Source: a virus. Taken from it: 33,096 nt of DNA. Shown one piece after another: positions 3,411-23,473 of this stretch. How positions within the stretch are numbered: the first letter of the stretch is position 1; every line of letters starts with the position of its first letter. The translations under genes were made by a program, and so were the position numbers. The notes below the pieces were generated by a model that saw nothing but the letters and a program-made list of their open reading frames with translations, was not told where the DNA came from and made no database searches. The stretch lies in the IMG/VR virus record IMGVR_UViG_3300020204_000210, positions 1-33,096 of that record; one strand, 5' to 3'.

Positions 3411-3471
3411 CCACCTTTCGGTGGGCTAGTTGTTACATACCATCATACAGGGGGGTGTAACACGGTGTCAA
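3411..3471 (-). promoter_or_regulatory. Promoter plus leader hairpin (leftward)
   Basis: On the minus strand, TTGACA (3471-3466), an 18-nt spacer containing GTGTTACACC, then TATGAT (3447-3442). This is one of the best consensus promoters in the window. The leader carries ACTAG and a CCACC-tttc-GGTGG hairpin (3411-3424) just before the ribosome-binding site. Confidence 0.8.
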
Positions 3472-3477
3472 GTATGG

Positions 3478-4320
3478 TCACAAGTCGTAGACCGCGACAT
3501 CTCCGTCTCGGTATCTAAAAGTCGTAAAGTCCCCTTTCGCAGTCTTTGATTTCGGGAAACGCACAAACTTGTTTGGTTCGTCAGCATGTCGCTCCGCACG
3601 ATTCATCTCCCTGCGTCGCTCCTGAATCCGAGTCATCACACGACCACAACCAAGTTGCTTCCAATTCTTGTGCCAGTCAGGGGAGTCCCGATACACAAGG
3701 TTGGTCGTATCTAAGAAATACGAATACATACTCAAAGTTTTGCTGTCGTAGTGGTACAGGGGAAAGTAACGGTAAGAACCATACGCTCGGTTCGCATCAA
3801 AATCGGGACTTTTGAGTTCGGTCTGCTCAAACATTGAGCGCAATGTTTTCTTCCATAGGTCGGTTGCTGTGGTGAAAGAGAAACCTTCGCACGGGTATGC
3901 GGTTGTGTCTCTTGGTGAAAGCAGTTCGTTCCTGTCTATGGTGATGAAAGGAGGTAACAGTATGTTGCGGTCTTCCCGTACGAACTGCGACGAGTTCGGG
4001 TCAAAGAAGAAGTTGTCTGTTTCTATGACTAGATGTCCCGACCATCCGCCCAAGTCGGGGGAGAAGCGAGATGCTGTAACATTCCAAGCACCCGCAGACA
4101 TTTTGTCTGCTGAGTTTCCTGCTTGTTCCCAACCTTCCTTGTTAAACACAATTGTTCCGACGGGTCGCACTTTGTGCGGAATGTCCAAACATTTAAGAAC
4201 TTTATGTGCGAAGTTTCCTGCCCAAATACAATGATTAGACGCAAGCCCGATGACCGATGCAGTCTCGTAAATAGCGATGCCGAGTTCGTTGAGAATTTGT
4301 TCTTCTTCTTCTAATTTCAT
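3478..4320 (-). CDS. Transglutaminase/papain-like fold protein, putative Cys-His-Asp enzyme
   Basis: 280 residues. The order SNHCIWAGNFAHKVL (Cys31 at a helix start), GGWSGHLVIE (His96) and FFFDPNSSQF (Asp107) matches the Cys...His...Asp layout of the transglutaminase, NAT and papain-like folds. The GHLVIE...FFDP spacing is typical of the two central strands. The C-terminal part is basic and unassigned. An AGGAGGTG ribosome-binding site lies inside the upstream small gene, whose TGA overlaps this ATG. Substrate is unknown; peptidase, amidase or acyltransferase activity are all possible. Family assignment is by motif reading only. Confidence 0.65.
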   Translation of the reverse strand: MKLEEEEQILNELGIAIYETASVIGLASNHCIWAGNFAHKVLKCLDIPHKVRPVGTIVFNKEGWEQAGNSADKMSAGAWNVTASRFSPDLGGWSGHLVIETDNFFFDPNSSQFVREDRNILLPPFITIDRNELLSPRDTTAYPCEGFSFTTATDLWKKTLRSMFEQTELKSPDFDANRAYGSYRYFPLYHYDSKTLSMYSYFLDTTNLVYRDSPDWHKNWKQLGCGRVMTRIQERRREMNRAERHADEPNKFVRFPKSKTAKGDFTTFRYRDGDVAVYDL

Positions 4321-4418
4321 TCCTGCTCACCTCCTGATGAATACTGTTTAACACAAATTGCGACCATAGTCCCGCCTATGACGAGACCTAGTAATCCGAG
4401 TATTGACTCAAATATCAT
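4317..4418 (-). CDS. Small single-span membrane protein, 33 aa
   Basis: A short frame, MIFESILGLLGLVIGGTMVA followed by ICVKQ and a polar tail ending GGEQE. Its stop overlaps the start of the next gene, and its 3' end carries that gene's AGGAGG site. The frame stays open further upstream but runs into repeat DNA. The ATG at 4418 is preferred because an ideal promoter places transcription start on it (next entry). Confidence 0.6.
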   Translation of the reverse strand: MIFESILGLLGLVIGGTMVAICVKQYSSGGEQE

Positions 4419-4425
4419 AAGTAGT

Positions 4426-4454
4426 AATCTAGCGGAGTGAGACACATCTGTCAA
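4426..4454 (-). promoter_or_regulatory. Consensus promoter for a leaderless mRNA
   Basis: Minus strand: TTGACA (4454-4449), 17-nt spacer, TAGATT (4431-4426), then 7 nt to the ATG at 4418. Transcription would start at or next to the A of the start codon. No Shine-Dalgarno sequence is present. Confidence 0.75.
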
Positions 4455-4493
4455 GTCCCGTTTCTGGACTTGACCGAAGAAACAGACGGGACT
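4453..4493. repeat. AGTCCCG / CGGGACT inverted cluster, island A
   Basis: AGTCCCG near 4454 and CGGGACT near 4487 face each other. The left copy also forms CAAGTCC-CGTTTCT-GGACTTG, a perfect 7-bp stem. It overlaps the -35 end of the leftward promoter. Confidence 0.6.
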
Positions 4494-4562
4494 CCCCCGC
4501 CACCCCACCCCGAACCCGAAATTTCGCCCCCCCACCCGACCCGAAGTCGTCACTCTTCCTAT

Positions 4563-4578
4563 GACGGTGGCGGAAAGC
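4563..4578 (+). repeat. 16-bp repeat, copy 1
   Basis: Exact GACGGTGGCGGAAAGC preceded by TTCCTAT. It is in the same orientation as all other copies and lies upstream of the promoter of island A. Confidence 0.9.
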
Positions 4579-4596
4579 CGGTGCCGGACGCCCACC

Positions 4597-4650
4597 GTGT
4601 AACACCCCCCGTCTAAGGTGGTGGCAACTACTAGCCCGACCTCGCGTCGG
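4597..4650 (+). promoter_or_regulatory. Cassette promoter and leader hairpin, island A
   Basis: GTGTAACACC-N7-TAAGGT (4597-4619), then ACTACTAG and the hairpin CCGAC-CTCGC-GTCGG (4636-4650), followed by GAGAAAGGAAAA and the ATG at 4667. There is no clear TTGACA. Confidence 0.7.
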
Positions 4651-4666
4651 AGAAAGGAAAACCCAC

Positions 4667-4867
4667 ATGAGCAAGTCTCAGTTCGGAATTCGCGCCCACG
4701 CGCAAGTTCAGACCATTGACGGGGAGTCGTTCGAGTTCCAACCCGAACATCTCTTCTGCGATGAGTGCTGGTCGTGCGCGGACACCGCGTATGCCCATGC
4801 TCTTTGGCACGGCGTTACCACGGCGTTCACCAAAGACGGGCATTCCATTACCGTTATCCGCGCCTGA
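4667..4867 (+). CDS. Small Cys/His-containing protein, 66 aa
   Basis: The middle of the protein contains LFCDECWSC with downstream histidines, which could bind a metal. It is transcribed alone from the cassette promoter and ends just before a strong terminator, so it is a monocistronic unit. Function unknown. Confidence 0.8.
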   Translation: MSKSQFGIRAHAQVQTIDGESFEFQPEHLFCDECWSCADTAYAHALWHGVTTAFTKDGHSITVIRA

Positions 4868-4884
4868 GCGCGTCTGACGCGACA

Positions 4885-4920
4885 CCCCCGTGCCTGATAA
4901 GGGTACGGGGGGTTTCGTCG
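4885..4920 (+). terminator. Rho-independent-type terminator
   Basis: A 10-bp stem (CCCCCGTGCC with GGTACGGGGG, one G-T pair) and a short loop are followed by TTTCGTCGTTTC. It sits between convergent genes and ends the 66-residue protein's transcript. Confidence 0.75.
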
Positions 4921-4923
4921 TTT

Positions 4924-5547
4924 CTAGGGGTTCTTAGGCAGTAATGAGCCCTTCTTGGAGCATGATTTGGGTGCTTTGTCGCCCCACGCGCACTTGTCCC
5001 AGGGAGCCCAGCCCGAATAGTCGTAAAGCAGTTTCCCTGCCCGCAAGTTCGTCAGGGGGTCTAGCAAGGGTTCTTGGTTGCAGATGCCCATGTCCAAGCA
5101 GACCCGCGCCCACTTGTTCCGCTTGAGGTTGTAGTTCACCCCGTTGATTTGGAGCAGTCCCGTGTCCGAACGGTGATTCCACTCCCTGACCCGCAAGATT
5201 TCGCAGGTCGGGGAAGGGACATCTCCACCCATAAGGTTGGGACACCCGCCGCTTTCCCTGAGAATAATGTGTTTCAGCATCGGGAGATGTTCGGGTTTCC
5301 ACCCGGCTTCTGCCGCCATTTCGGGAAGCCAGTGGTCTACCTGACCATGTAAGAACTGAATAGCGGGTTTAGCGGGAACGGTAACAGTCCCACTTACCCT
5401 GTCCGCCACGGGCGGGACTTGTTGAGTTATGGAAGAGATGATTATTGCTTGGTCGGTTACTTCCGGTGCCGGTGCTTCTATCTTTGACCCGATTCCGAAA
5501 GCAGTTCCGTACAAAGCAATAATGCTTACGAGTGTTTTGCCTAACAA
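4924..5547 (-). CDS. Exported lysozyme-like transglycosylase (SLT-type), probable lytic enzyme
   Basis: 207 residues. A hydrophobic N-terminus (about 5-20, LVSIIALYGTAFGIG) looks like a signal peptide or anchor, followed by a Pro/Val/Thr-rich linker. The C-terminal domain has ILRESGG with the probable catalytic Glu98, GLLQIN (130-135) and NLRAGKLLYDYSGWAPW, the three hallmark blocks of SLT/lysozyme-fold muramidases. It is expected to cleave glycan strands after export, in lysis or entry. Several cysteines near the catalytic core may form disulfides. The start is TTG with AAAGGA at good distance; no better start is seen. Confidence 0.88.
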   Translation of the reverse strand: MLGKTLVSIIALYGTAFGIGSKIEAPAPEVTDQAIIISSITQQVPPVADRVSGTVTVPAKPAIQFLHGQVDHWLPEMAAEAGWKPEHLPMLKHIILRESGGCPNLMGGDVPSPTCEILRVREWNHRSDTGLLQINGVNYNLKRNKWARVCLDMGICNQEPLLDPLTNLRAGKLLYDYSGWAPWDKCAWGDKAPKSCSKKGSLLPKNP

Positions 5548-5830
5548 GTTGTTGTCCTTTGTTTGGGGTATGTTGCTGTCCGGGGTATTGATGCTTCCCG
5601 TCTAATAACTATTTACAAGTTTACCATTTGATGTCTTTTGGGGTCAATAGGCTGCGCGCATGGCATCAATTTTGCTGTTTTTCGTCTGGTCGCCCGGTCT
5701 TCGTTCGGTCTTCCCTGGTTTTGGGTTGGAAGTCCCGAAACTGTTGCTGGGTAACGGGACTAGCGGGGTGGCTGAACCTAGTTGGTTGGGGGTTTGGGGT
5801 ATCTACTTAGGTGGCAGACCACCGATACGG

Positions 5831-5848
5831 GTGTGACGCGGTTCACAC
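5831..5848. promoter_or_regulatory. Perfect CRP-family-like operator dyad
   Basis: GTGTGA-CGCGGT-TCACAC is a perfect 18-bp dyad containing TGTGA-N6-TCACA, the consensus of CRP/FNR-family regulators. Its centre lies about 60 bp upstream of the start expected from the promoter at 5865-5893. Confidence 0.6.
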
Positions 5849-5864
5849 GGGATTTCCCGAACAT

Positions 5865-5893
5865 TTGACGGGTCGCACGGTCAGCAATAGGTG
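5865..5893 (+). promoter_or_regulatory. Putative promoter for the gene at 5918
   Basis: TTGACG, 17-nt spacer, TAGGTG. The -10 is weak, which fits dependence on an activator bound at the dyad upstream. Confidence 0.45.
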
Positions 5894-5917
5894 GGCAACA
5901 ACACGAAAGGCAACACG

Positions 5918-6142
5918 ATGAAGACAACGACACGGCTACTGATAGACGAACTAGACCGCTCGCGACGCGCAGGGTGGGCGTTCGGATTCACGCAGAAAGA
6001 GCAAGCGCAGATGCTGAGAGATGAGAACGACAAACTGAAATGGTTGGTGCGTCACTTGGTGCGGAAGATTATCTTCCACAAACGCCTACACAACGACGAC
6101 GACCTAGTGGAACTAGCCAAACACTTGGAGATGTCTGTCTAG
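5918..6142 (+). CDS. Small basic helical protein, 74 aa
   Basis: The ATG is chosen over an upstream GTG because AAAGG lies 7 nt before it. The sequence is Arg/Lys rich and probably helical (QMLRDENDKLKWLVRHLVRK), and could be a short coiled coil or nucleic-acid-binding protein. No family is recognised. Confidence 0.7.
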   Translation: MKTTTRLLIDELDRSRRAGWAFGFTQKEQAQMLRDENDKLKWLVRHLVRKIIFHKRLHNDDDLVELAKHLEMSV

Positions 6143-6174
6143 CCCCACTAGGTGCGTTTTACTGATTCGGTGGA

Positions 6175-6414
6175 TTAGGCGTACTCAACCTCGTAAGAGT
6201 GAACGATGAAATCCTCACCACTTGCTTCGCTCATGAGACCTTTCAGTTCTTCTTCACCGCCATGGCAGAAGTAGAAGATTTTGGAATCATGCGTGCCGAA
6301 CTTGTCGTATCCTTCTTCTTCGCAGTCTTCCGCGAAAGAGATGAAGACAGGGCGAATCTGTTTGGGCAGGTCGCGCCACTCGATTTGGCAGTATGCGCCG
6401 ATAGGTGTGTTCAC
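6175..6414 (-). CDS. Small hypothetical protein, 79 aa
   Basis: The start is taken as GTG at 6414, which overlaps the preceding TGA as GTGA; an upstream in-frame start lies inside the previous gene. The protein is acidic (EDCEEEGYDKF). No known domain. Confidence 0.7.
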   Translation of the reverse strand: MNTPIGAYCQIEWRDLPKQIRPVFISFAEDCEEEGYDKFGTHDSKIFYFCHGGEEELKGLMSEASGEDFIVHSYEVEYA

Positions 6415-6668
6415 TTTGCTACCACCCACTTCCCTTCCACGAGCACGAATCCCATGTGCTCCGCGTAATCAGGGTCATCGTAGAACGCGACATCGCGACA
6501 GTAATCGCAAATCTCGGATACCGAGTAGACGCGCTCCATAGGGCATGAACAACCGTTTGCCTTGCGGAGCACTTCGGAGCACTCCCTACAAAGGTTGTTG
6601 GTGAGCGGAGACCACTCGTCTCCGCAGTTGGCGCAGGCAACATCGTTGCCGAACTCAGGTGTGGTCAT
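6411..6668 (-). CDS. Zinc-ribbon protein, 85 aa
   Basis: Several Cys pairs are visible: CANCGDEW, LCREC, CSCPMERV and CDYC, consistent with one or two zinc ribbons. Second gene of a coupled leftward trio (ATGA upstream, GTGA downstream). A nucleic-acid-binding or adaptor role is possible but unproven. Confidence 0.75.
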   Translation of the reverse strand: MTTPEFGNDVACANCGDEWSPLTNNLCRECSEVLRKANGCSCPMERVYSVSEICDYCRDVAFYDDPDYAEHMGFVLVEGKWVVAK

Positions 6669-6880
6669 GAGAGCACCTCAACCGATTCCACCTCATACCA
6701 ATGGGAGAACCCTTCCTCAAACAAATCCGACAACGCTTGTACGCGAGCATCGTCTTCGTCTGTCGTGGTCACCATTACCGCGATGTGGGTAATCGTTGTC
6801 TCGGCATGGTACTCGTCTTTGAGAGCGAGATTCACCTGAAAGGTGAACTCCTCAACGAGTGTTGTTTCTTCTGTATTCAT
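6665..6880 (-). CDS. Small acidic protein, 71 aa; possible relative of the proteins at 10491 and 10718
   Basis: First gene of the trio, behind a cassette promoter. The pattern FTFQV...TTTDEDDARVQALSDL...GFSHWYEV resembles the two tandem proteins at 10491 and 10718 (a strand, then D-E-D-x-A, a helix, then an aromatic turn). Function unknown. Confidence 0.75.
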   Translation of the reverse strand: MNTEETTLVEEFTFQVNLALKDEYHAETTITHIAVMVTTTDEDDARVQALSDLFEEGFSHWYEVESVEVLS

Positions 6881-6893
6881 GGTATTCCTTTCT

Positions 6894-6949
6894 CCACCCG
6901 TTCGGGTGGGCTAGTTGTTGTTATTCAGATTACGCACGGGGTGTAGCGA
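6894..6949 (-). promoter_or_regulatory. Cassette promoter and leader hairpin (leftward)
   Basis: Minus strand: element CTACACC, N7 (CCGTGCG), TAATCT at 6932-6927; the leader hairpin CCACCCG-AA-CGGGTGG is at 6909-6894. The stem sequence differs from the usual CCGAC form but pairs perfectly. Confidence 0.65.
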
Positions 6950-6973
6950 AGTGTGACTTCACTTCACCCCGTG
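6938..6973. repeat. Large inverted repeat between operons
   Basis: The two arms (CGGGGTGTAGCGAAGT and ACTTCACTTCACCCCG) pair over 16 positions with two mismatches around a GTG loop. It overlaps the end of the gene at 6964 and the upstream element of the next promoter, so it could be both a 3' end signal and an operator. Confidence 0.6.
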
Positions 6974-7308
6974 TAGTTCGGGAGAAGTTCCTTCCACAAG
7001 TCGTTGTAATCTTCTTCCTTGCGCTTGCGGTGGTTCTGCTGAACTTCCTTCTGCCACTCCACGAGTTCGTCACCCTCACCGTTCTCAATAAGACCGAGAA
7101 ACGGATTCGGGTATCCGACGACATCGTTCACGAAGTCTTCCGCGTCTCCGAGTGCGTTCTCTCCGAGAAACTCCACCGATTCCCTGCTACGCATAAGCGG
7201 ATTCTCAGGGTTCACGGGGTGCTCCAACAAGATTCGCACCTGAGCGTCGTCGTTCTCCCACACGGTGAGAGTCCAACCGAGTTGCTGAATCTGTCTCTGT
7301 ATCTTCAC
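6964..7308 (-). CDS. Hypothetical protein, 114 aa
   Basis: GTG start at 7308 directly after the cassette leader (GGAGAAGGGATACCGAA). Longer in-frame starts would run through the promoter and hairpin. Polar protein with a basic C-terminal helix (NHRKRKEEDYNDLWKEL). No family recognised. Confidence 0.75.
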   Translation of the reverse strand: MKIQRQIQQLGWTLTVWENDDAQVRILLEHPVNPENPLMRSRESVEFLGENALGDAEDFVNDVVGYPNPFLGLIENGEGDELVEWQKEVQQNHRKRKEEDYNDLWKELLPNYTG

Positions 7309-7323
7309 TTCGGTATCCCTTCT

Positions 7324-7383
7324 CCGACCTTTGGTCGGGCTAGTTGCTTCTATACCTACCACTATAACACGGGGGTGTAACAC
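7324..7383 (-). promoter_or_regulatory. Cassette promoter and leader hairpin (leftward)
   Basis: Minus strand: GTGTTACACC, N7, TATAGT (7383-7361), then the leader hairpin CCGACC-aaa-GGTCGG (7338-7324). The preceding hexamer is GTTACC, a weak -35. Confidence 0.7.
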
Positions 7384-7395
7384 GGTAACCGTCGC

Positions 7396-7415
7396 AAGTT
7401 ACCGCTCGGTAACTT
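7396..7415. promoter_or_regulatory. AAGTTAC dyad, copy 1
   Basis: AAGTTAC-CGCTCG-GTAACTT, a perfect inverted repeat just upstream of the leftward cassette promoter and overlapping the stop codon of the gene at 7414. Two more copies with the same arms and spacing lie at 9341 and 15681. Confidence 0.65.
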
Positions 7416-7590
7416 AGTCCTTCATCAACGACTTCACGATGAACGCAATACCAACACAAATCAGCGCACCGACCCCGAAGACCAAATCCAACTCCGAGAA
7501 ATCGTACCTGTTGTGATAATCCGCAAACAGTCCCGACCATGCGTACACGGTCATAAGTCCCGCCATAAGCATCGGCGAATCGGGACTCAC
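7414..7590 (-). CDS. Small membrane protein, 58 aa
   Basis: GTG start overlapping the preceding TAG by one base. Two hydrophobic stretches (around MLMAGLMTVYAWSGLF and FGVGALICVGIAFIV) suggest two membrane spans with a polar hairpin between. It could be a small holin-like or transporter-associated protein, but nothing in it is specific. Confidence 0.7.
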   Translation of the reverse strand: MSPDSPMLMAGLMTVYAWSGLFADYHNRYDFSELDLVFGVGALICVGIAFIVKSLMKD

Positions 7591-7889: not shown

Positions 7890-7896
7890 ACGGGCA

Positions 7897-8128: not shown

Positions 8129-8142
8129 GCTTACTCCCTTCT

Positions 8143-8918: not shown

Positions 8919-8972
8919 GCCGACATCGGGTCGGCGGTTGTTGGTAATGAGATTACGCACGGGGTGCTACGA
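8919..8972 (-). promoter_or_regulatory. Cassette promoter and leader hairpin (leftward)
   Basis: Minus strand: GTAGCACC, N7 (CCGTGCG), TAATCT (8955-8950), then GCCGAC-CCGAT-GTCGGC (8935-8919). The hairpin is the same variant as at 19888. Confidence 0.65.
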
Positions 8973-9028
8973 AGTGTGAGCACGATGCGATGGGGGTAGG
9001 GAATCTGCGAAGCGCGATGCGATGGGGA

Positions 9029-9141
9029 GCGCACGCGCACGGGCACGCGCACGGGCACGCGCACGGGCACGGGCACACGGGCGGGCACACGGGTACGCAC
9101 GCGGGCGCACGCGCACGCACGCGCACGCGCACGCGCACGCG
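9029..9141. repeat. Alternating GC/AC low-complexity tract
   Basis: About 110 bp of GCACGC and GGGCAC units, almost entirely alternating purine and pyrimidine. Such tracts can adopt left-handed DNA and are prone to slippage. Confidence 0.85.
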
Positions 9142-9144
9142 GGG

Positions 9145-9228
9145 AGTCCCGATGCGAAAGGGCGATGCGGGAGTCCCGCCACAACTTTCGTTGTGCGGGG
9201 CTGTCTGTTCTGTGGGAACGGGCGGGAC
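9145..9228. repeat. AGTCCCG / CGGGACT inverted cluster, island B
   Basis: AGTCCCG at about 9147 and 9172, CGGGACT at about 9221. The second and third copies extend to AGTCCCGCC...GGCGGGACT. Confidence 0.65.
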
Positions 9229-9436: not shown

Positions 9437-9494
9437 GTGTAACACCTACCTACTAAGGTGGTGTGTAGAAATCAACTAGCCCGACGAGAGTCGG
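9437..9494 (+). promoter_or_regulatory. Cassette promoter and leader hairpin, island B
   Basis: GTGTAACACC-N7-TAAGGT (9437-9459), ACTAG, then CCGAC-GAGA-GTCGG (9481-9494) and GAGAAAGCAAGGGAAG before a GTG start. ACACC and GGTGT flank the -10 as a dyad. Confidence 0.7.
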
Positions 9495-10150: not shown

Positions 10151-10204
10151 GCGTAGCACCCATTCGGTACTATCGGTATCAACAACTAGACCGACGAGAG
10201 TCGG
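10151..10204 (+). promoter_or_regulatory. Cassette promoter and leader hairpin
   Basis: GCGTAGCACC-N7-TACTAT (10151-10173), AACTAG, CCGAC-GAGA-GTCGG (10191-10204), then GGAAAGGCAAGAGA and ATG. The upstream element is a degenerate GTGTnACACC at the same 7-bp spacing. Confidence 0.65.
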
Positions 10205-11133: not shown

Positions 11134-11197
11134 GTGTCACACCTATTCGTTATTGTGCGTAATAGGAAGTAACAACTAGACCGACCGAGAAGGTCGG
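11134..11197 (+). promoter_or_regulatory. Cassette promoter and leader hairpin
   Basis: GTGTCACACC-N7-TATTGT (11134-11156), overlapping GTGCGTAATAGG, then AACTAG and CCGACC-GAGAA-GGTCGG (11181-11197). Confidence 0.7.
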
Positions 11198-11932: not shown

Positions 11933-11987
11933 CCGACACTTGGTCGGTCTAGTTGATACCTACCACTATAATGGTAGGGTGTAACAT
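11933..11987 (-). promoter_or_regulatory. Cassette promoter and leader hairpin (leftward)
   Basis: Minus strand: ATGTTACACC-N7-TATAGT (11987-11965), leader hairpin CCGAC-caagt-GTCGG (11947-11933). CTACC and GGTAG flank the -10 as a dyad. Confidence 0.7.
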
Positions 11988-12010: not shown

Positions 12011-12063
12011 ATGTAACACCCCGTGCGTAAGGTATGTAACAACTACTAGACCCCGACAAGGGG
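12011..12063 (+). promoter_or_regulatory. Cassette promoter and leader hairpin
   Basis: ATGTAACACC-N7-TAAGGT (12011-12033), ACTAG, then CCCC-GACAA-GGGG (12051-12063). Divergent from the promoter at 11965-11987 with about 23 bp between the upstream elements, so one regulator could control both. Confidence 0.7.
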
Positions 12064-12439: not shown

Positions 12440-12513
12440 CGGGGTGGACATCACACCCCGTTACACCCCGTGCGTAAGATAGGTATCAACAACTAGCCCG
12501 CCTCGCGAGGCGG
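12440..12513 (+). promoter_or_regulatory. Pre-promoter hairpin, cassette promoter and leader hairpin
   Basis: CGGGGTG-GACATCA-CACCCCG (12440-12460), then CCGTTACACC-N7-TAAGAT (12458-12480), AACTAG and the self-complementary CCGCCTCGCGAGGCGG (12498-12513). Its stem is fully changed from CCGAC yet still pairs. Confidence 0.7.
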
Positions 12514-13046: not shown

Positions 13047-13069
13047 GTGTTACACCCCTATGTTATTGT
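13047..13069 (+). promoter_or_regulatory. Cassette promoter, upstream copy in island C
   Basis: GTGTTACACC-N7-TATTGT. A TTGACA lies at 13035, too far for this -10 but 18 bp from TATGTT, so two overlapping starts are possible. Confidence 0.55.
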
Positions 13070-13094: not shown

Positions 13095-13166
13095 GAGTGG
13101 ACATCACACTCTGTAACACCCCGTGCGTAAAGTAATCAACATCAACTAGCCCGACTACCAAGTCGG
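13095..13166 (+). promoter_or_regulatory. Pre-promoter hairpin, second cassette promoter and leader hairpin
   Basis: GAGTG-GACATCA-CACTC (13095-13111), CTGTAACACC-N7-TAAAGT (13111-13133), ACTAG, then CCGACT-ACCA-AGTCGG (13151-13166). Confidence 0.7.
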
Positions 13167-13501: not shown

Positions 13502-13577
13502 CAGGGTGTGGACATCACACCCTGTAACACCCCGTGCGTAATGTAGGTAGGTAAGAACAACTAGCCCCCGAGAGGGG
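13502..13577 (+). promoter_or_regulatory. Pre-promoter hairpin, cassette promoter and leader hairpin
   Basis: CAGGGTGT-GGACATC-ACACCCTG (13502-13524, perfect 8 bp), CTGTAACACC-N7-TAATGT (13522-13544), then CCCC-GAGA-GGGG (13566-13577). Confidence 0.7.
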
Positions 13578-13591: not shown

Positions 13592-14014
13592 GTGGAAACA
13601 GAAATCAAGAACGATGAAATCGCTGAGGCGATAAACATCGTCACGAACGCTGTCGCTGAACACGGCGCACCTGTGTGGGTCGTCAAAGTTCCGACACGGA
13701 TACGACAACTCGTACCTGCGAACATCAAGGCAGGACTCCTCGCAACCGCGAAGATAAGCGAAGGTTGGGCGAAAGACATAGACGGCTCGTACATCAAAGG
13801 ACGCTTGGACTACCGCTCAGTCATCATCACATGGGCGAAGGACAAGGTGTTTCAGCAGGTGACCGTCAAGGAAATCGCTGAGGCGACAGGCGCGTCACAA
13901 AACATCGTGCGCGATGTCATCAACGACCGACCCGACATCTTCCGCAAGAGCGAGGGTTGGACATACGAAATCAGAGACCCACAAGCAGACAGAAAGGCAG
14001 GACAGAAAAAGTGA
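13592..14014 (+). CDS. Probable HTH DNA-binding protein, 140 aa
   Basis: GTG start behind the leader. Residues about 90-115 (QVTVKEIAEATGASQNIVRD) read as a helix-turn-helix: a short helix, A-x-x-x-G-A turn, then a recognition helix. The N-terminal half is helical and the C-terminus basic. First gene of a seven-gene coupled operon, so it could be an operon regulator, but this is inference. Confidence 0.7.
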   Translation: METEIKNDEIAEAINIVTNAVAEHGAPVWVVKVPTRIRQLVPANIKAGLLATAKISEGWAKDIDGSYIKGRLDYRSVIITWAKDKVFQQVTVKEIAEATGASQNIVRDVINDRPDIFRKSEGWTYEIRDPQADRKAGQKK

Positions 14015-15843: not shown

Positions 15844-15900
15844 GTGTTACACCCAATCCGTAAAGTGGGAATCAACAACAACAAGACCGACAAGAGTCGG
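15844..15900 (+). promoter_or_regulatory. Cassette promoter and leader hairpin, island D
   Basis: GTGTTACACC-N7-TAAAGT (15844-15866), then CCGAC-AAGA-GTCGG (15887-15900). The leader reads ACAAGA instead of ACTAGA here. Confidence 0.7.
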
Positions 15901-16363: not shown

Positions 16364-16455
16364 GTGTAACACCCATCCCATAAGGTGGGTGACATCACAC
16401 GGAGATACCGACCGTGCGTAATGTAAGTAACAACAACTAGACCGACAAGAGTCGG
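16364..16455 (+). promoter_or_regulatory. Cassette promoter and leader hairpin for the AAA+/VWA operon
   Basis: GTGTAACACC-N7-TAAGGT (16364-16386) with CACCCA and TGGGTG flanking the -10. A second ACCGTGCGTAATGT lies near 16411-16424, then AACTAG and CCGAC-AAGA-GTCGG (16442-16455). Confidence 0.7.
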
Positions 16456-16472
16456 AGAAAGCAAGGAAAGAA

Positions 16473-17210
16473 ATGGCAAACAAGAAGGAAGAGCGTCAAG
16501 ACCTTCCGCAATGTTGGAAGGATGTTGAGAACGCTCTCAACGCAGGGATTGACAGGCTCATCCTGTTCGGTCCCCCAGGGACAGGCAAGACCTTCGCAGG
16601 TCTCACCTACGGTGACATCAACGCAGGTTCGTACCGTCTCATCTGCACGGAAGAAATGACGAACGCAGATGTGACAGGTCACTACAAACCGAACGCACAA
16701 GGTGCGTGGGCGTGGCAGGAAGGCTCTGCTATCAAGGCATGGCAGGGCGACGGTCAGCGTGGCGGTCGTCTCGTGATTGACGAGATTGACAAGGCAGGTG
16801 GCGATGTGTTCGCAACCTTGCTCGCAATGACCGACTCCCCTGAGTCAGCGAAGTGGGAACATCCCGAAAGCGGTCGCATCGTGCGTCCGTTGGACGGATT
16901 CTCTGTCGTGATGACCACGAACATTGAGCACATGAACGAACTCCCTGAGGCTCTCAAGGACAGGTTTCCTGTGGCAATCCGTATCAACCAACCGCATCCC
17001 GACGCTTTGGCTCTGCTCTCCGCAGACCTCCGCAACTACGCGGTGCGTATGGCAGACGCAGGTGAGCGACGAATCTCGTTGCGAACCTTCTTCGCATTTG
17101 ACAAACTCCGCAAGACGCTAGGTGATGCGGAAGCATCCCGACTCGTGTTCGGTCGTCAAGCGGAAGCGGTCATTGACGCAATCGCGATTGACAAGGTTGG
17201 TGCGAAATGA
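16473..17210 (+). CDS. AAA+ ATPase, MoxR/CobS-like
   Basis: 245 residues: Walker A GPPGTGKT (33-40), Walker B RLVIDEID (99-106), sensor-1 region TTN (148-150) and a probable arginine finger in LKDRF (Arg164). The compact one-domain form and the partner VWA gene match MoxR/CobS-type ATPases, which remodel protein partners or insert metals through a VWA subunit. Cobalt chelation is unlikely without other cobalamin genes. The stop overlaps the next start (ATGA), indicating a two-subunit complex. Confidence 0.9.
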   Translation: MANKKEERQDLPQCWKDVENALNAGIDRLILFGPPGTGKTFAGLTYGDINAGSYRLICTEEMTNADVTGHYKPNAQGAWAWQEGSAIKAWQGDGQRGGRLVIDEIDKAGGDVFATLLAMTDSPESAKWEHPESGRIVRPLDGFSVVMTTNIEHMNELPEALKDRFPVAIRINQPHPDALALLSADLRNYAVRMADAGERRISLRTFFAFDKLRKTLGDAEASRLVFGRQAEAVIDAIAIDKVGAK

Positions 17211-18712
17211 CCAACACTCTGAACGACAACATCCGTCCCCTCCCCGAAATGTTGGGGAGGAAGGACAGGAAAGATGAACTCGGTGCGTGGCAGGTAGGCG
17301 AGTGCAGACCTGCTCGTGGCGAACCGTTCACCAACATCGTTGACCGCGTGATGCGCGTACCTCAGAAGAACGAGGTGCTTGACCGCGTGGTTCGTGCTCA
17401 CGAGATGATGCATGCGAAGGTTTCCCCTGCTGAGGATTTCCCGAAGTGGGTGGAGAGAGGAATCGCGTCCGAGACCGCTTTGCGTGTCGTTGAGGAAGTG
17501 CGAGTCAACTACCTGACGAAAAAGGCAGGATTTGACATCGGTCAACTCACGGACGGAAGCGAACTCACCTCAGGTATGCAACTCGCAGAACGCGGTGAGT
17601 GGGCTCATGCTGTCTACACGGCGGTCGGATACGCGCTCTGTGGCGGTGGCAAGGACTTCCTCACAGGAGTCCGTCGCGTGAACCGCGCATGGGGAGCAAC
17701 GCTGAAGGACATCATCAAGCGCGTGGAGAAAGAAATCAAACTCGCGGACAAGAGCGGAACGCTCGCGTCTACGGAGATTGACCCACGCACAGGATTGAAC
17801 CCTCTCGGTTTCTCGCATACGGAACGACTCGCGGAGTGGGTTGACCGTCTCGCGAATCCTCCGAAGAACGAGGACGAGCAAGGTGAGGGCGACGAAGAGG
17901 GCGACGAAGAGGGCGACGAAAAGAACGATGACCCTCAGGACAAGAAAGACGGAAACCCGAAGGGCAACGGCAAGGCAGGGAAACAGAAAGACGAACCTGC
18001 TCCTGTTGACCCCGACAAGGTGAACCCTGCTAAACCAAGAGGCAATGGCGGTGTTGAGTCGTGGGCGAAACTCATCCCGACGAAACTTCCGTTGACTCGT
18101 CGTGCGAAAGGTGGGCTCGGTCGCAAGCGCATCGCTTGCAATGTCGGTCGCAATCCTCGTCGTATCGGCAACGCTCTCGTTGACCCTGATAGGCGAGTGT
18201 TTGACCGCACGAAGCGAAGCAACGGCGGTGTCGTCTTGATTGACGGTTCGGGCTCAATGAGTCTGTCTCACAAGGACATCCTTGACATCACGGAGAACGC
18301 TCCAGGTGCGACGGTCGCGGTCTACGCAACCGACCCTGAGAACAAACTTCCCAACCTGTTCGTGCTCGCTGAGAAGGGACGCATGGTTGAGAAACTTCCT
18401 GAGCGTCACGGCGGTAACGGCGTGGACGGAGAGGCGATTCGTTGGGCGATAAAGCAGAAGCAACACGCTCACGCTCCTGTCGTTTGGATTACTGACGGTC
18501 AGGTTCACGGAGTCCGCAATGGATACTCCGATTTCTTGGGCATGGATTGCATCAAGGAAACAATCAAGGGCAAGGTGTTGCTCGCTCCCAATGTCAAGGA
18601 AGGCATTGAGGTTCTCAAGGCACTCAAGGCAAGCAAGAAACCGAAGCGTTGGTTTCCGCATGTTTGGGCAGAGACCTACGAACGATTGCAAGGTCGGCGG
18701 TTGGGGGCGTAA
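17207..18712 (+). CDS. VWA-domain protein, CobT-like, with N-terminal HExxH motif
   Basis: 501 residues. N-terminal region: AHEMMHAKVSP gives HEMMH at 65-69, followed by VVEEVRVNYL, similar to the zinc-metallopeptidase-like domain found before VWA domains in DUF2201-type proteins. Centre: low-complexity acidic segment from a GAGGGCGACGAA repeat (about 17886-17921), then Lys/Pro-rich linker. C-terminal VWA domain: MIDAS motif DGSGSMS (346-352) with later DGEAIRWA and WITDGQV segments. It probably partners the AAA+ ATPase; whether it cuts protein or bridges a target is unknown. Confidence 0.88.
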   Translation: MTNTLNDNIRPLPEMLGRKDRKDELGAWQVGECRPARGEPFTNIVDRVMRVPQKNEVLDRVVRAHEMMHAKVSPAEDFPKWVERGIASETALRVVEEVRVNYLTKKAGFDIGQLTDGSELTSGMQLAERGEWAHAVYTAVGYALCGGGKDFLTGVRRVNRAWGATLKDIIKRVEKEIKLADKSGTLASTEIDPRTGLNPLGFSHTERLAEWVDRLANPPKNEDEQGEGDEEGDEEGDEKNDDPQDKKDGNPKGNGKAGKQKDEPAPVDPDKVNPAKPRGNGGVESWAKLIPTKLPLTRRAKGGLGRKRIACNVGRNPRRIGNALVDPDRRVFDRTKRSNGGVVLIDGSGSMSLSHKDILDITENAPGATVAVYATDPENKLPNLFVLAEKGRMVEKLPERHGGNGVDGEAIRWAIKQKQHAHAPVVWITDGQVHGVRNGYSDFLGMDCIKETIKGKVLLAPNVKEGIEVLKALKASKKPKRWFPHVWAETYERLQGRRLGA

Positions 18713-19183: not shown

Positions 19184-19192
19184 TTTGTAATC

Positions 19193-19567
19193 CTACGAAT
19201 TGTTGCGGATTATTTGGTGAACGCGCTGACGAGAAAGCGAATACACCTCGGCTAACGCACGAGCGGAGCGACCCTGCCGATACAAAGAAACGATTTCCGT
19301 ATCACGCACGGAATCCTGTTGCCTCCCAGGTTTCTGTTTCTCCCAACGCCAATCAGGAAAGCCCGACAGTTGCCCAACCCGTTCAGAAGAGAGAGTCCCC
19401 TGACGCTGACGCTGACGATTGTACGCAATCCATGCACCGAGTGCGATGTTGCGACCGTCAACGGTTTCCGTGTGAGTTGTCGGAACGAGCGATGTCCCCG
19501 TTCGGGCGACATACTGTTCCAATGCTTTGATGTGTGTTGACCAACGGTCATTTCGTGAAATGCTCAT
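19193..19567 (-). CDS. Helicase-associated-domain protein with C-terminal HTH, 124 aa
   Basis: The N-terminal 75 residues follow the helicase-associated (HA) domain pattern: W...L..Y....G...VP......DGRNIALGAWIAYNRQR...G.L...RV..L...P.W.W. The C-terminus DTEIVSLYRQGRSARALAEV, then YSLSRQRVHQII, reads as a sigma-region-4/resolvase-like helix-turn-helix. HA domains occur alone in actinobacteria and probably bind nucleic acid. No ribosome-binding site; TATTGT lies 7 nt before the ATG, suggesting a leaderless mRNA. Confidence 0.8.
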   Translation of the reverse strand: MSISRNDRWSTHIKALEQYVARTGTSLVPTTHTETVDGRNIALGAWIAYNRQRQRQGTLSSERVGQLSGFPDWRWEKQKPGRQQDSVRDTEIVSLYRQGRSARALAEVYSLSRQRVHQIIRNNS

Positions 19568-19727
19568 AGTCCCGACAATAGTTCGCCGAAGGCTTTACAA
19601 ATGCAAGTCCCGCCCTGTGCGGGCGGTAGCGGGGCTTGCGGAGCGGGTGTGGACATCGGGACTTGCGGGCGGTTGGGCGCGGTCGGGGGGCGGTCGGGCG
19701 CACCTGCGGTTGAGCATCTCTTCGTAT

Positions 19728-19743
19728 CACGGTGGCGGAAAGC
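19728..19743 (+). repeat. 16-bp repeat, copy 5 (one change)
   Basis: CACGGTGGCGGAAAGC, first base C instead of G, preceded by CTTCGTAT. Confidence 0.85.
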
Positions 19744-19783
19744 CGGTGCTGTGAGTCCGAAATCTTGGAACTTCGGAAATGTC

Positions 19784-19812
19784 TTGACATCCCGTCACAT
19801 TCGTATTAGTGT
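19784..19812 (+). promoter_or_regulatory. Consensus-type promoter, island E
   Basis: TTGACA, 17-nt spacer, TAGTGT, about 36 bp before the cassette promoter. Confidence 0.6.
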
Positions 19813-19847
19813 GTGCGTAGTAGATGTTAGGTAGCACACAAATAACC

Positions 19848-19904
19848 GTGTGACACCCCCACCGTAGGTTGGTGGGCATCAACAACCGCCGACCCGATGT
19901 CGGC
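19848..19904 (+). promoter_or_regulatory. Cassette promoter and leader hairpin, island E
   Basis: GTGTGACACC-N7-TAGGTT (19848-19870), flanked by CCACC and GGTGG, then GCCGAC-CCGAT-GTCGGC (19888-19904). ACTAG is replaced by AACCG. Confidence 0.7.
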
Positions 19905-19920
19905 AGAAAGCAAGGCAACA

Positions 19921-20184
19921 ATGGGTAATCAAGTAGCAGAGGGATACGCAGAGGCAGTTGAGGACGGTCTGATTGACCTGACTCAGGCACTCACTATCCA
20001 CCTATCAGGCAATCACTATCCACCCGTTCACCCGTCCTTTGTGGATACCGCGTTGGAGGCAATCCGACTCGCTAACGAAGGACAGTTTGACGAGGATGTC
20101 ACTATGGCGAACGGTCTCGTTCGTTCGGTTCACTTCATCATTGACGGACTCCACTTGTGGGCGTTCGTGAAGGAGAGCGTCTGA
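19921..20184 (+). CDS. Hypothetical protein, 87 aa
   Basis: Acidic and mostly helical, with a His/Pro-rich middle (LSGNHYPPVHPSF). First gene behind island E. Function unknown. Confidence 0.8.
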   Translation: MGNQVAEGYAEAVEDGLIDLTQALTIHLSGNHYPPVHPSFVDTALEAIRLANEGQFDEDVTMANGLVRSVHFIIDGLHLWAFVKESV

Positions 20185-20185
20185 C

Positions 20186-20413
20186 ATGGAGCGTTGGCAA
20201 CGAGCATTAGACGCTCACATCACCCGTGAACCCTCCGAGCACGCACCGTGTGAGGAGTGTGGGGAGAACACCCGTACAGATTTGTGGGACGACGAAGCAC
20301 CCGTGATTTGCTACGAGTGCGCTAACCCGAACGACCCCGAGGTCGTTCAATGGAAACAATGGAAACTGCGTAAGCAGGCTGAGGAAGTCGTCAAAGCAAT
20401 CCTCGGTAAGTGA
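20186..20413 (+). CDS. Zinc-ribbon protein, 75 aa
   Basis: CEECGENTRTDLW and CYEC form a C-x2-C...C-x2-C ribbon; the C-terminal third is a charged helix (WKLRKQAEEVVKAI). AAGGAGAG lies at normal distance from the ATG. Confidence 0.8.
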   Translation: MERWQRALDAHITREPSEHAPCEECGENTRTDLWDDEAPVICYECANPNDPEVVQWKQWKLRKQAEEVVKAILGK

Positions 20414-20414
20414 G

Positions 20415-20477
20415 TTGACACCGTAATACACCCCCCTGTAGTATGGGGGGTGAACAACTAGACCGACCAAGCGTCGG
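20415..20477 (+). promoter_or_regulatory. Consensus promoter inside a dyad, with leader hairpin
   Basis: TTGACA (20415-20420), 18-nt spacer, TAGTAT (20439-20444). The -10 lies in the loop of CACCCCCC...GGGGGGTG (20429-20452). Leader hairpin CCGAC-CAAGC-GTCGG (20463-20477). Confidence 0.8.
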
Positions 20478-20494
20478 AGAAAGCAAGGTAAGCA

Positions 20495-21142
20495 ATGCCA
20501 AACGAATGCAGTAACACGCTGACAATCGCAGGTGACCCGTACGAGATTTCTCGTTTCGTGAAGGCTGTGACCGTCAACTACATCAACGAAGAAACGAAAG
20601 CACCTGAGACGGACATCCGTATCCTCAAGTCGCTGTACCCGTGTCCTGCGGAACTCTACGAAGTCAAGGCTGACTTCACGGAGAAACCCGAAATGCGTGA
20701 GAAGTACGGCGCGTCAGATTGGTACGAATGGTGCAACCGTCGTTGGGGAACGAAGTGGGGCGACTACGAACACCTCATTCCAGTCCACAAGGAAGGCGCG
20801 TCAATCGCAATCTTTCAGTTCACGAGCGCATGGTCACCACCTATTGGAGGGTTGGCGTATGTGTCCAAACAGTTCTCAAGTCTGTCGTTCGTTCTCTCTT
20901 ACGAGGAGGGCGGTATGTGTTTCTTGGGTTCAGCACTCATCATTGACGGTGAGGTCGTATCCGAAATGGAGGGCGAGTACCCCAACATAGACGACTACAA
21001 GGCTGACGAAGATGACTACGACTACGACAAGCACTATGAAGCGTTGTCGGAGAACCTCGCTAAGTGCGAGCAGGCTGTTCTCGCGTTCCTTCCGAAGTCG
21101 CACGAACAGTACGGCAAGCAACTCGGAAAGACGCAAGTCTGA
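20495..21142 (+). CDS. Api92/YubB-like ferredoxin-fold protein, 215 aa
   Basis: Opens with MPNECSNTLTIAGDPYEISR, the usual start of Api92-like proteins (N-x-L-x-I-x-G), and later has SDWYEWCNRRWGTKWG and FQFTSAWSPP, both characteristic of that phage and plasmid family. The N-terminal domain is predicted as a ferredoxin-like fold; activity is unknown. The C-terminus adds an acidic Asp/Tyr-rich segment. Confidence 0.75.
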   Translation: MPNECSNTLTIAGDPYEISRFVKAVTVNYINEETKAPETDIRILKSLYPCPAELYEVKADFTEKPEMREKYGASDWYEWCNRRWGTKWGDYEHLIPVHKEGASIAIFQFTSAWSPPIGGLAYVSKQFSSLSFVLSYEEGGMCFLGSALIIDGEVVSEMEGEYPNIDDYKADEDDYDYDKHYEALSENLAKCEQAVLAFLPKSHEQYGKQLGKTQV

Positions 21143-21148
21143 GAAACC

Positions 21149-21241
21149 CTGTGACACCCCTGCCGTAAGGTGGGGACTGTCACAAACACGGGAAACCGTG
21201 CGTAACTACAACAACATAAACTAGCCCGACCTGAGGGTCGG
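21149..21241 (+). promoter_or_regulatory. Cassette promoter and leader hairpin
   Basis: CTGTGACACC-N7-TAAGGT (21149-21171) within a GTGACACCCC...GGGG...GTCAC dyad, a second ACCGTGCGTAAC at about 21196, then CCGACC-TGAG-GGTCGG (21226-21241). Confidence 0.7.
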
Positions 21242-21255
21242 AGAGGAGCAAGGAA

Positions 21256-21702
21256 ATGCATACAGGAATAGCACTCGTCGTACAAGCAGACAGCGCAGAA
21301 GAGGCGGTCGCTTGTGTGGAACATTTCAACGAGCACAACGCTCAGTGGTCGGATTGGAACGAGCACGGCGGTCGTTGGAGCGATGTCATTGAGGGCGCGG
21401 TTCTGCGCTACTCCGATGACCCCAAGAAGTTCAACGAACTCGTTGAGCAATACAAGGGCTACAAGAAGGCGGAAATAGAGCGATTTATGGCTGAGGTTGG
21501 CGACTTGACAATCAAGGAAATCGTCACGAACCCGAAACTTTGGCAGGCGAACAAACTGTTGAAGTTGGTGTACGGAGAGTTCGGCGAGAGGCAACATTTC
21601 TTTGATGCTGACGCTCACACCACAAGCGACAACTACCTCAACGAGCGCATCAAGGAGAACCCCGACAAGCAGTTCATCGTCATTTGGGACTACCACTACT
21701 GA
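21256..21702 (+). CDS. Hypothetical protein with W-S-D-W...GGRWSD motif, 148 aa
   Basis: The N-terminal half contains AQWSDWNEHGGRWSDVIEGA, a Trp/Gly pattern of the kind seen in phage hypothetical proteins (recalled, not searched). It is followed by charged helices and an aromatic strand at the end (FIVIWDYHY). Function unknown. Confidence 0.8.
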   Translation: MHTGIALVVQADSAEEAVACVEHFNEHNAQWSDWNEHGGRWSDVIEGAVLRYSDDPKKFNELVEQYKGYKKAEIERFMAEVGDLTIKEIVTNPKLWQANKLLKLVYGEFGERQHFFDADAHTTSDNYLNERIKENPDKQFIVIWDYHY

Positions 21703-21705
21703 CCC

Positions 21706-21801
21706 TTGACTGTGTGACACCCCTGCCCTATTATGGGGGTGTCACATTCCGAAAGGTTCGTGCGTAATAGAAGTAACAACAACTAGCCCTGCCGAGGCAG
21801 G
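21706..21801 (+). promoter_or_regulatory. Best-formed cassette promoter, operator dyad and leader hairpin
   Basis: TTGACT (21706-21711), 17-nt spacer, TATTAT (21729-21734). The spacer is exactly GTGTGACACC plus 7 nt. GTGACACCCC and GGGGTGTCAC form a perfect 10-bp dyad around the -10. Leader hairpin CCTGC-CGAG-GCAGG (21788-21801). Confidence 0.85.
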
Positions 21802-21819
21802 AGAAAGCAAGGAAAGAAA

Positions 21820-22095
21820 ATGGATACCAAGAAACCGTTGAGAGCAGAAGATGTGGCAGAGTTCCTCATCGCTCTCCGTCACGCTCAGCAGGCGATGCTC
21901 AACTTGTCAATCAAGTGGGAGAAGTTTGACGGGTTGGATGAAGTCCTGTGCGACGGATACCCGTTTGACAAGTCATTTGACGAGCAGGTCTACGACATGA
22001 AGTCGTGGAGTGAGCGTCTTGAACAGCACCACGACAGGATGCGTCTCGCAGAGTTTGAGTTTTGGAAGAACAACAACAAGCAAGGGGGCAACTGA
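21820..22095 (+). CDS. Helical hypothetical protein, 91 aa
   Basis: Charged and Trp-containing, probably all-helical (LIALRHAQQAMLNLSIKWEK). First gene of a five-gene coupled operon. Function unknown. Confidence 0.78.
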   Translation: MDTKKPLRAEDVAEFLIALRHAQQAMLNLSIKWEKFDGLDEVLCDGYPFDKSFDEQVYDMKSWSERLEQHHDRMRLAEFEFWKNNNKQGGN

Positions 22096-22421
22096 TGACC
22101 ACCGATACGACACTTGAGGAGATGTTTGAGACCGTACTAGATGCGGTTGAAACGGCACACCTCGTAGCGTTCGACCGTTGTCACAAGATTTATTTGGCAA
22201 TGGACGAGATTGAAGCGAAGTGGTTTAGCGAAAGCAACTACACCGTGTTCAAGGGTTCACCAATAGAGATGTACCTAGAGGTCATCAAATGGTGGAATGA
22301 GTCGTGCGGTCTCAGGTTCATCCAATCGGTTACCCACAACGAGACGAACCGCAACGCAGGCTACAAGACCCTCGTCCCACAAGGGGCAGGGGACAACTAC
22401 GAAGAGGAGGAAACAGAATGA
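22095..22421 (+). CDS. Hypothetical protein, 108 aa
   Basis: TGATG junction. Acidic helical start and end (EEMFETVLDAVETAH; EEEETE), with aromatic residues in the middle. No motif. Confidence 0.75.
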   Translation: MTTDTTLEEMFETVLDAVETAHLVAFDRCHKIYLAMDEIEAKWFSESNYTVFKGSPIEMYLEVIKWWNESCGLRFIQSVTHNETNRNAGYKTLVPQGAGDNYEEEETE

Positions 22422-22813
22422 GCAAGAGCAAGTTCAACAAGCACCACTACGACATCCCGTATGTCCACCCGTTCAACCGTGAAGGTGACGATGTGTGTAC
22501 GGTCGGTCAGTTGAAGAAGATGTTGGAGATGTTGGACGACGACATCATCGTCTTGGTTGGTACGGACACTTGGTACAACAACATTGAGTCCGCTATGTTC
22601 CCCGACAATGACGGCATAACTTGTCTGACTTTCGTGCAGGGTGAACCGTACGACACGCGATACCCAAACCCGTTCCCTTTTGAACACGAGGACGACCTAG
22701 ACGAAGAAACCGCTCGTTTCGTTGAAGAGTTCACAAAGAACGAAGATAGAGAACCGACAGAAGACGAGATTGCTAAGTTCCGAGAGAACGCTTACGAGGA
22801 GGTAGCGAAATGA
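22418..22813 (+). CDS. Acidic hypothetical protein, 131 aa
   Basis: ATGA junction. VGQLKKMLEMLDDDIIVLVG resembles the first part of the proteins at 14684 and 24863. The C-terminal half is a strongly acidic helix region. Confidence 0.75.
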   Translation: MSKSKFNKHHYDIPYVHPFNREGDDVCTVGQLKKMLEMLDDDIIVLVGTDTWYNNIESAMFPDNDGITCLTFVQGEPYDTRYPNPFPFEHEDDLDEETARFVEEFTKNEDREPTEDEIAKFRENAYEEVAK

Positions 22814-23040
22814 TTACCGAGCAAGACAGACTGAACCTCAAACACGGGGACATCGTTGCTCGCAAGTTTCGTGGCACAGTCACCAACTATGTCATCGTCA
22901 ACCTCACCGCAGGCAAGCGGTGGTTTTGGGTGCGTGACACCCAATGGGGCGACGACGGGTTCTACGACGAAAACCACGATTTGACCGAACCAAAATGGTC
23001 GGTCGTATCCACAACGAACAACGAGGAGAACAAACAATGA
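22810..23040 (+). CDS. Small beta-rich protein, 76 aa
   Basis: ATGA junction. HGDIVARKFRGTVTNYVIVN followed by WFWVRDTQWGDDGF suggests a small barrel-like domain. Function unknown. Confidence 0.75.
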   Translation: MITEQDRLNLKHGDIVARKFRGTVTNYVIVNLTAGKRWFWVRDTQWGDDGFYDENHDLTEPKWSVVSTTNNEENKQ

Positions 23041-23393
23041 AAGAACCATACGAGGGCGTGCGTCGGCACAAGTTGCTGACGAAAGAAATCAGGGATGCGC
23101 TCCCTGCGCTGTACGCAACCGACGAAGTGAAGTTGAGCGACAAGACGATTGTCTGTAAGTTCTTCTCCCCCTTCAACGGGTGGCGTTGGTACGCAACCGA
23201 GTTTGACGGCGAGGACACCTTCTTTGGTGTGGTCGTCGGTTGGGAAACCGAGTGGGGCTACTTCAGTCTCAACGAACTCGCGAGCGTCGCTGTCGCAGGG
23301 GATACCGTTCCTGCGGTGGAGCGCGACCTGTCGTTCTCTCCGTGTCTCGTGAAGGACATCCCTGAACTCGCAGAGAAATACGCAACAACTTGA
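23037..23393 (+). CDS. DUF2958-domain protein, 118 aa
   Basis: ATGA junction. The series ALPALYATDE, CKFFSPFNGWRWYATEFDGE, FGVVVGWETEWGYFSLNEL and VERDLSF follows DUF2958 closely (LY-x-T/E, K-FF-P, W-W-x-x-E, FG-x-V-x-G-x-E-x-GYFSL-EL, ERD). The family is frequent on plasmids and phages; its role is unknown. Confidence 0.8.
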   Translation: MKEPYEGVRRHKLLTKEIRDALPALYATDEVKLSDKTIVCKFFSPFNGWRWYATEFDGEDTFFGVVVGWETEWGYFSLNELASVAVAGDTVPAVERDLSFSPCLVKDIPELAEKYATT

Positions 23394-23403
23394 GCGAGGG
23401 GGG

Positions 23404-23473
23404 TTGACAAATCCCCACCGCCACCCTACAATAACAGTAGGTAATAAATAACTACTAGCCCGACTCAGGTCGG
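23404..23473 (+). promoter_or_regulatory. Consensus promoter and leader hairpin for the Lys-tail gene cluster
   Basis: TTGACA (23404-23409), 17-nt spacer, TACAAT (23427-23432). The spacer has CCCCACC plus 7 nt instead of GTGTnACACC. Leader hairpin CCGAC-TCAG-GTCGG (23460-23473), then GAGAAAGACAAGAA and ATG. Confidence 0.8.

Follow-up and report, generated by a model that had tools for sequence, protein, structure and literature searches.

Only a few cultured phages are known to have promoter classes of their own. In the middle promoters of phage T4, the MotA/AsiA system, a phage box replaces the −35 element while the host −10 is kept, and the box recurs tens of times at a set distance. The MotA box lies 12 ± 1 bp from the −10 (PMC2988021). 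Cluster A mycobacteriophages such as L5 and Bxb1 carry about 20–30 short oriented operator or stoperator sites per genome, the 13-bp stoperators lying mostly off promoters and halting elongation. Among relatives in this cluster, the regulator diverges along with its motif (PMC6550527). In Streptomyces, WhiA and WhiB co-activate promoters at GACAC (PMC3781837, PMC4850268), and WhiB has been recognized as a marker of actinophages (PMC10202952, PMC6802176). Here, we analyzed a 33-kb viral fragment (IMG/VR record IMGVR_UViG_3300020204_000210; 33,096 nucleotides, referred to as the window) and describe a class of intergenic promoters, GTGTnACACC-N7-TAnnnT, which belongs neither with T4 middle promoters nor with Cluster A operators.

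Results

A box at fixed distance from the −10

The pattern GTGTNACACC-N7-TANNNT was found 17 times in the window at ≤2 mismatches, including 8 exact matches, whereas 100 dinucleotide shuffles of the window averaged 2.72 matches and never exceeded 6, and the reversed pattern gave a single match per strand. The 18 listed or related box sites (Table 1) all lie entirely between genes, in a window of which 77% is coding by the gene calls made here. TAnnnT stands exactly 7 bp 3′ of 14 of the 16 TGTnACACC cores in the window. The same spacing was shared by 75/97 cores in 12 relatives, each other spacing from 0 to 29 bp accounting for 0–4 cores. Relatives of up to 174 kb were found via the WhiB-like and AAA proteins. 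Among 2.9 million viral contigs, the extended box AACCGTGTNACACCCC followed by TANNNT had matches in 37 stretches when the spacing was 7 bp, and had none when it was 6 bp. These results bear out a preliminary description of the window, in which the class, its 7-bp spacing and its intergenic placement had been proposed; all coordinates listed there were located, and the two minus-strand copies at 6949 and 8972, albeit weak, keep the 7-bp spacing.

Alignment of the sites showed a fuller box, aACY-n-TGTnACACCC, in which the upstream A and C are present at 96–97% of aligned sites; the conserved box therefore spans from the inside of the −35 hexamer to about −20. The box is thus longer than the preliminary description had it. 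Its position is between −35 and −10, in the 17-bp spacer directly after the −35 position. The sigma-A type −35, TTGAC at 17-bp spacing, accompanies 8/97 of these boxes, referred to as class I, and is absent from the other 89 (92%), in line with the earlier remark that most sites lack a good TTGACA; the copy at 21706, TTGACT followed by an exact box, is the sole window site with a TTGAC −35. Boxless TTGAC-N18-TAnnnT promoters coexist with box promoters in the same genomes.

The class had also been called phage-wide, which did not hold. In large relatives, class I sites are limited to one early-type region, e.g., 85–98 kb of a 133-kb genome, and in a second large relative they occur only within 88–119 kb of 129 kb. 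The promoter of the AAA gene could be traced through its orthologues, among which box and spacing are kept and the surrounding DNA diverges.

Different boxes on the same promoter frame

Then, phages sharing the AAA gene were scanned for 5-mers that keep a constant spacing to TAnnnT. The results showed that relatives without GTGTnACACC are not box-less, but carry other words at the same promoter place: TGAyACACCC in L118 and L122; GGAAATCTGAAGCACC in L077, with kin words such as TTTGTAAATCTGATATCGG and TTGGTATCTGTCCTGCG; GGTTGTnATT...CTAATAGCC, CTAATAACGGA, TTACTACCC or CTTATTACGG in L070, L071, L136, L139, L153 and L169; GCGCCGAAGGAT in L068; and CTAATnATTAG, overlying the −10, in L074 and L075. 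The L125–L137 group has only TTGAC at normal spacing. Wherever the box was lost or replaced, the replacement was always at the same place, and box copies reach 26–31 in G031 and G032. In classes I and IV, a long lineage-specific box stands in for the −35; in classes II and III, such a box extends it. The distant relatives G078 and G079 carry a further class, AGGTTGC...TGTGA-TAnnnT, in up to 27 copies; they have two or three class I boxes as well, at 20047 and 20980 (G078) and at 3962–4527 (G079, in L273). In all, at least six box types stand on one fixed promoter frame within a single phage family.

The relatives also bear on the identity of the −10. A start codon follows TAnnnT by 6 or 7 nucleotides at 16/21 sites in G032, 14/18 in L139, 15/19 in L153 and 7/14 in G030. 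Across classes III and IV this holds for half to four fifths of sites, with a mean below one site for other offsets. Start codons so placed are typical of leaderless mRNAs and identify TAnnnT as their true −10 in classes III and IV. From the architecture shared with these classes, the class I TAnnnT would likewise be a −10, with transcription starting 6–8 nucleotides downstream.

gR as a candidate reader of the box

The leading candidate for a protein reading the box is gR. Its AlphaFold model (mean pLDDT 83), searched with Foldseek, is a winged helix of MarR/ArsR type that matches such folds in the PDB; MotA is not among the matches listed. Box genomes of class I, class II and class III encode gR, and its recognition helix groups by box class except in G066. 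The helix has xKA in class I, IDKT in class II, E(R/K)T in most of class III and VQKT in most of class V. In 16 genomes, gR distance correlated with box distance at r 0.83, and the partial correlation given the mean of 10 other proteins was 0.67 (permutation p 0.001). In an earlier run with 21 genomes, gR likewise ranked first. Partial correlations with the box were ≤0.09 for WhiB, g57–g60, g63 and g65, which are neighbours of gR. The gene is directly followed 3′ by a tRNA-Arg gene (anticodon TCT; 31891–31964, +), the one tRNA in the window.

Other DNA-binding or sigma-binding proteins were considered as well. The C-terminal helix-turn-helix of g40b resembles sigma region 4.2, and its N-terminal part, presumably, helicase-associated domains; the gene is kept in 33/41 relatives and is opposed in strand within the early region. 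A sigma region 4 search matched the g40b family (124–150 amino acids) and a protein of about 215 amino acids with an N-terminal helix-turn-helix. The WhiB-like protein was found in 41/42 relatives and is kept across box classes. WhiB and g40b are unlikely to set the box, since their DNA-facing parts are constant across box classes; the g40b recognition helix, SRQRVHQI, is nearly invariant. Two further candidates were rejected: the recognition helix of g30 varies within the GTGT class, and the strand of g59 is nearly constant across classes. An HslV-family peptidase-like protein (29035–29676, −) adjoins WhiB and is kept in most relatives, and the window also encodes a metallophosphoesterase.

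Other features near the promoters

At many sites, an inverted repeat is centred near the −10. The mean longest stem was 4.94 bp, compared with 4.27 bp (standard deviation 0.09) when arms were swapped between sites; the maximum mean stem in 200 such swaps was 4.49 bp, and 12/87 sites have stems of 8–10 bp. Between orthologous promoters the letters of the arms change but the pairing is kept (CCCTTCCCC/GGGGAAGGG, CCCCTTACC/GGTAAGGGG). The −10 hexamer lies in the repeat loop and the arms covary between orthologues, as seen at window sites and at L055 14202/14636, L058 14140, L060 14183 and L066 14136, and a GGGG-AAA-CCC motif follows the repeat near the likely transcription start. The repeat may form a structure, either in DNA or in read-through RNA. 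The 5′ untranslated regions (5′ UTRs) share ACTAG, a small hairpin and GAGAAAG ahead of the start codon, and the hairpin shows compensatory changes (CCGAC/GTCGG, CCGCCT/AGGCGG, CCTGC/GCAGG, CCACCC/GGGTGG). Such modules occur at 10182, 11172, 12489, 16433, 20454 and 21776 (+) and at 3433, 6918, 7351 and 8163 (−).

Boxless −10s of CCGTGCGTAAnnT type were seen at 16412, 21196, 21759, 15789 and 9402 in the window; this type is often a second promoter 3′ of the boxed one, and in relatives it has a CACAC...GTGTG inverted repeat 5′ of it. An intergenic 15-mer, GACGGTGGCGGAAAG, occurs at ≤2 mismatches at 4563, 9297, 12928, 15647, 19728, 25822, 26488, 26852 and 27581 (+), often about every 1–4 kb, and is confined to the early region in large genomes. 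It keeps to a single strand regardless of gene direction (window 9/9, G001 14/14, G008 12/12, G032 9/9, G028 9/9, G031 8/8) and is found across box classes I–III; it may be a strand-polar replication, recombination or packaging signal. At 9021–9155, beside the divergent early region, a GC-rich unit of about 12 bp (ACGCGCACGGGC) is imperfectly repeated in tandem.

Table 1. Box promoters and genes discussed in the text (window positions; sites given as box-spacer-−10 where available).
Feature	Position	Strand	Remarks
Box GTGTTACACC	3442..3463	−	6-bp spacing to TATGAT
Class I box promoter, exact	4597..4619	+	GTGTAACACC-ccccgtc-TAAGGT
Weak box promoter	6927..6949	−	TCGCTACACC-ccgtgcg-TAATCT
Class I box promoter, exact	7361..7383	−	GTGTTACACC-cccgtgt-TATAGT
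Weak box promoter	8950..8972	−	TCGTAGCACC-ccgtgcg-TAATCT
Class I box promoter, exact	9437..9459	+	
Weak box promoter	10151..10173	+	GCGTAGCACC-N7-TACTAT; additional to the preliminary list
Class I box promoter, exact	11134..11156	+	
Box promoter ATGTTACACC	11965..11987	−	inverted repeat CCTACCA/TGGTAGG brackets the −10
Box promoter ATGTAACACC	12011..12033	+	
Box promoter CCGTTACACC	12458..12480	+	
Class I box promoter, exact	13047..13069	+	first member of tandem pair
Box promoter CTGTAACACC	13111..13133	+	second member of tandem pair
Box promoter CTGTAACACC	13522..13544	+	5′ of g30
g30	13592..14014	+	second winged-helix-turn-helix-like protein; box promoter upstream
Class I box promoter, exact	15844..15866	+	
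Class I box promoter, exact	16364..16386	+	5′ of AAA gene; orthologous promoter in relatives
5′ UTR module (example)	16433..16473	+	ACAACTAGA-CCGAC-loop-GTCGG-AGAAAGCAAGG, then start codon
AAA ATPase and partner gene	16473..18712		
g40b	19193..19567	−	124 amino acids; C-terminal helix-turn-helix (LSRQRVHQI) resembling sigma region 4.2; in relatives, matches to Sigma70_r4
Class I box promoter, exact	19848..19870	+	−10 within CCCACC/GGTGGG
Box variant GTAATACACC	20423..20444	+	6-bp spacing to TAGTAT
Box promoter CTGTGACACC	21149..21171	+	
TTGACT, exact box and TATTAT	21706..21734	+	
g59	28021..28188	+	small, ribbon-helix-helix-like
g62	28725..29024	−	phage WhiB-like protein; PF02467 (Pfam Whib), 59 bits
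gR	31434..31862	+	143 amino acids; winged helix (MarR/ArsR-like fold); leading candidate box reader

Discussion

We give an even chance to the proposal that the GTGTnACACC-N7-TAnnnT sites are early promoters whose clade-specific box is read by a phage factor in place of the contact between sigma region 4 and the −35. The host's RNA polymerase, carrying its main sigma factor, would read TAnnnT as the −10, and the stretch from −35 to about −20 (aACY-n-TGTnACACCC) would be bound by a phage-encoded DNA-binding factor. By contacting the polymerase in a fixed helical register, this factor would substitute for the sigma-4/−35 contact and so activate transcription, and the phage WhiB may assist it. 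WhiB-type proteins are known to bind sigma region 4. gR is put forward as the best candidate for the factor. The box differs by lineage, with architecture and −10 unchanged, so that the reader and its box seem to evolve together. The preliminary description had left open whether the element serves an activator or phage factor or is an operator built into the spacer; its promoters and spacer position stand, and both models are live. Activation is favoured over repression, since the spacing is exact to the base and in one orientation and TTGAC is lost in 92% of sites.

Several observations weigh against activation through gR, and some of them suit the main rival, in which the box serves as an operator. 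The promoters would then be used by unaided host polymerase, and gR or some other phage repressor would bind in the spacer and silence them later or in superinfection; box divergence would be escape from a relative's repressor, as in the Cluster A mycobacteriophages, in which co-divergence of motif and repressor is known (PMC6550527). The genomes are not independent, and the permutation test on gR does not fully remove shared ancestry; AAA (0.48) and VWA (0.39), encoded inside the box region, also track the box; and the recognition helix alone is not better correlated than the whole or the rest of gR. MarR-fold proteins, moreover, are most often repressors. Classes II and III retain a TTG-like −35, and TTGAC and box are combined in 8/97 class I sites. 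Class V phages, the promoters of which have TTGAC only and no clear box, encode gR too, and one contig (G077) and the distant G078 and G079 have one to three class I boxes each, with gR and g40b undetected. Nevertheless, a repressor needs no single-orientation spacing fixed to the base pair, as seen at 75/97 sites, the great majority of box promoters do without TTGAC, and the promoter of gR itself has no box in the three class I genomes inspected. We consider an operator somewhat unlikely. A terminator or stoperator was rejected as well, the sites being locked to the −10 and having no T-run.

The boxes of distant relatives lacking gR would also fit a host transcription factor as reader, for example WhiA acting with the WhiB that these phages encode, the box differing with the host. 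This is improbable: G precedes ACAC in 7% of 89 sites, as opposed to the WhiA consensus GACAC; a search of 22 phage genomes found no WhiA; WhiB shows no co-variation with the box; and the many boxes would demand many host factors. We are more doubtful still of a different phage protein as the reader; the foremost such candidate is g40b, as a substitute for sigma region 4. Its helix-turn-helix resembles those of phage late activators besides sigma region 4.2, and its conservation and strand-opposed place in the early region would suit such a role, but its divergence does not track the box, and with a nearly constant recognition helix it could read a shared part only, not the changing box.

On the reading with a phage factor, the class I promoters share with T4 middle promoters a phage box in place of the −35, a kept host −10 and tens of sites with one set spacing. 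The likeness may extend to a phage-coded DNA reader with a sigma-4-binding partner, here possibly WhiB. Unlike in T4, 7 bp separate the end of the box from the −10 (though aACY enters the −35), its sequence is different, the candidate reader is MarR/ArsR-like rather than MotA-like, and the box changes between close phages. The best reading is that the system can be likened to MotA boxes, yet is not homologous to them. The number of short oriented sites per actinophage genome recalls the Cluster A operators and stoperators, as does a regulator, gR, whose divergence follows that of the motif; unlike the stoperators, nearly all sites here lie 7 bp from a −10. With WhiA/WhiB promoters the class shares an actinobacterial setting, a WhiB-like protein and an ACAC-containing box near the promoter, but GACAC is not the consensus and the phages have no WhiA. 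Sigma-A promoters of Actinobacteria similarly have a TAnnnT −10 and often leaderless mRNA, and class V relatives use TTGAC, whereas in the other classes the lineage box replaces (I, IV) or extends (II, III) the −35. In the literature searched, which covers few subscription journals, no paper has two of five box spellings together, and none combines stoperator with actinobacteriophage promoter terms.

Related AAA loci are also present in metagenome bins, many of them labelled Acidimicrobiia or Actinomycetes, so the host is probably an actinobacterium, to which no genus is assigned. Megablast of 25 kb of the window against INPHARED phage records gave no match, tblastn of gR, g40b and the VWA protein revealed no carrier among the annotated phages of INPHARED, and a scan of viral contigs for g30 returned zero relatives. 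Judged from sequence, these would be uncultured double-stranded DNA phages of actinobacteria, a family readable from metagenomes alone.

The findings give a promoter map for uncultured actinophages and orthogonal promoter/regulator pairs to try in actinobacteria, and make the joint change of a regulator and its tens of sites directly testable. A bolder version of the phage-factor reading, which we think unlikely, is a system resembling the sigma appropriation of T4 but independent of it, in which a fast-evolving gR and a conserved WhiB would steer host RNA polymerase to a private word, whose 10–30 copies would be rewritten together with the reader. If true, the early genes of a whole actinophage family would be run in this way, and each phage would have a separate transcription code.

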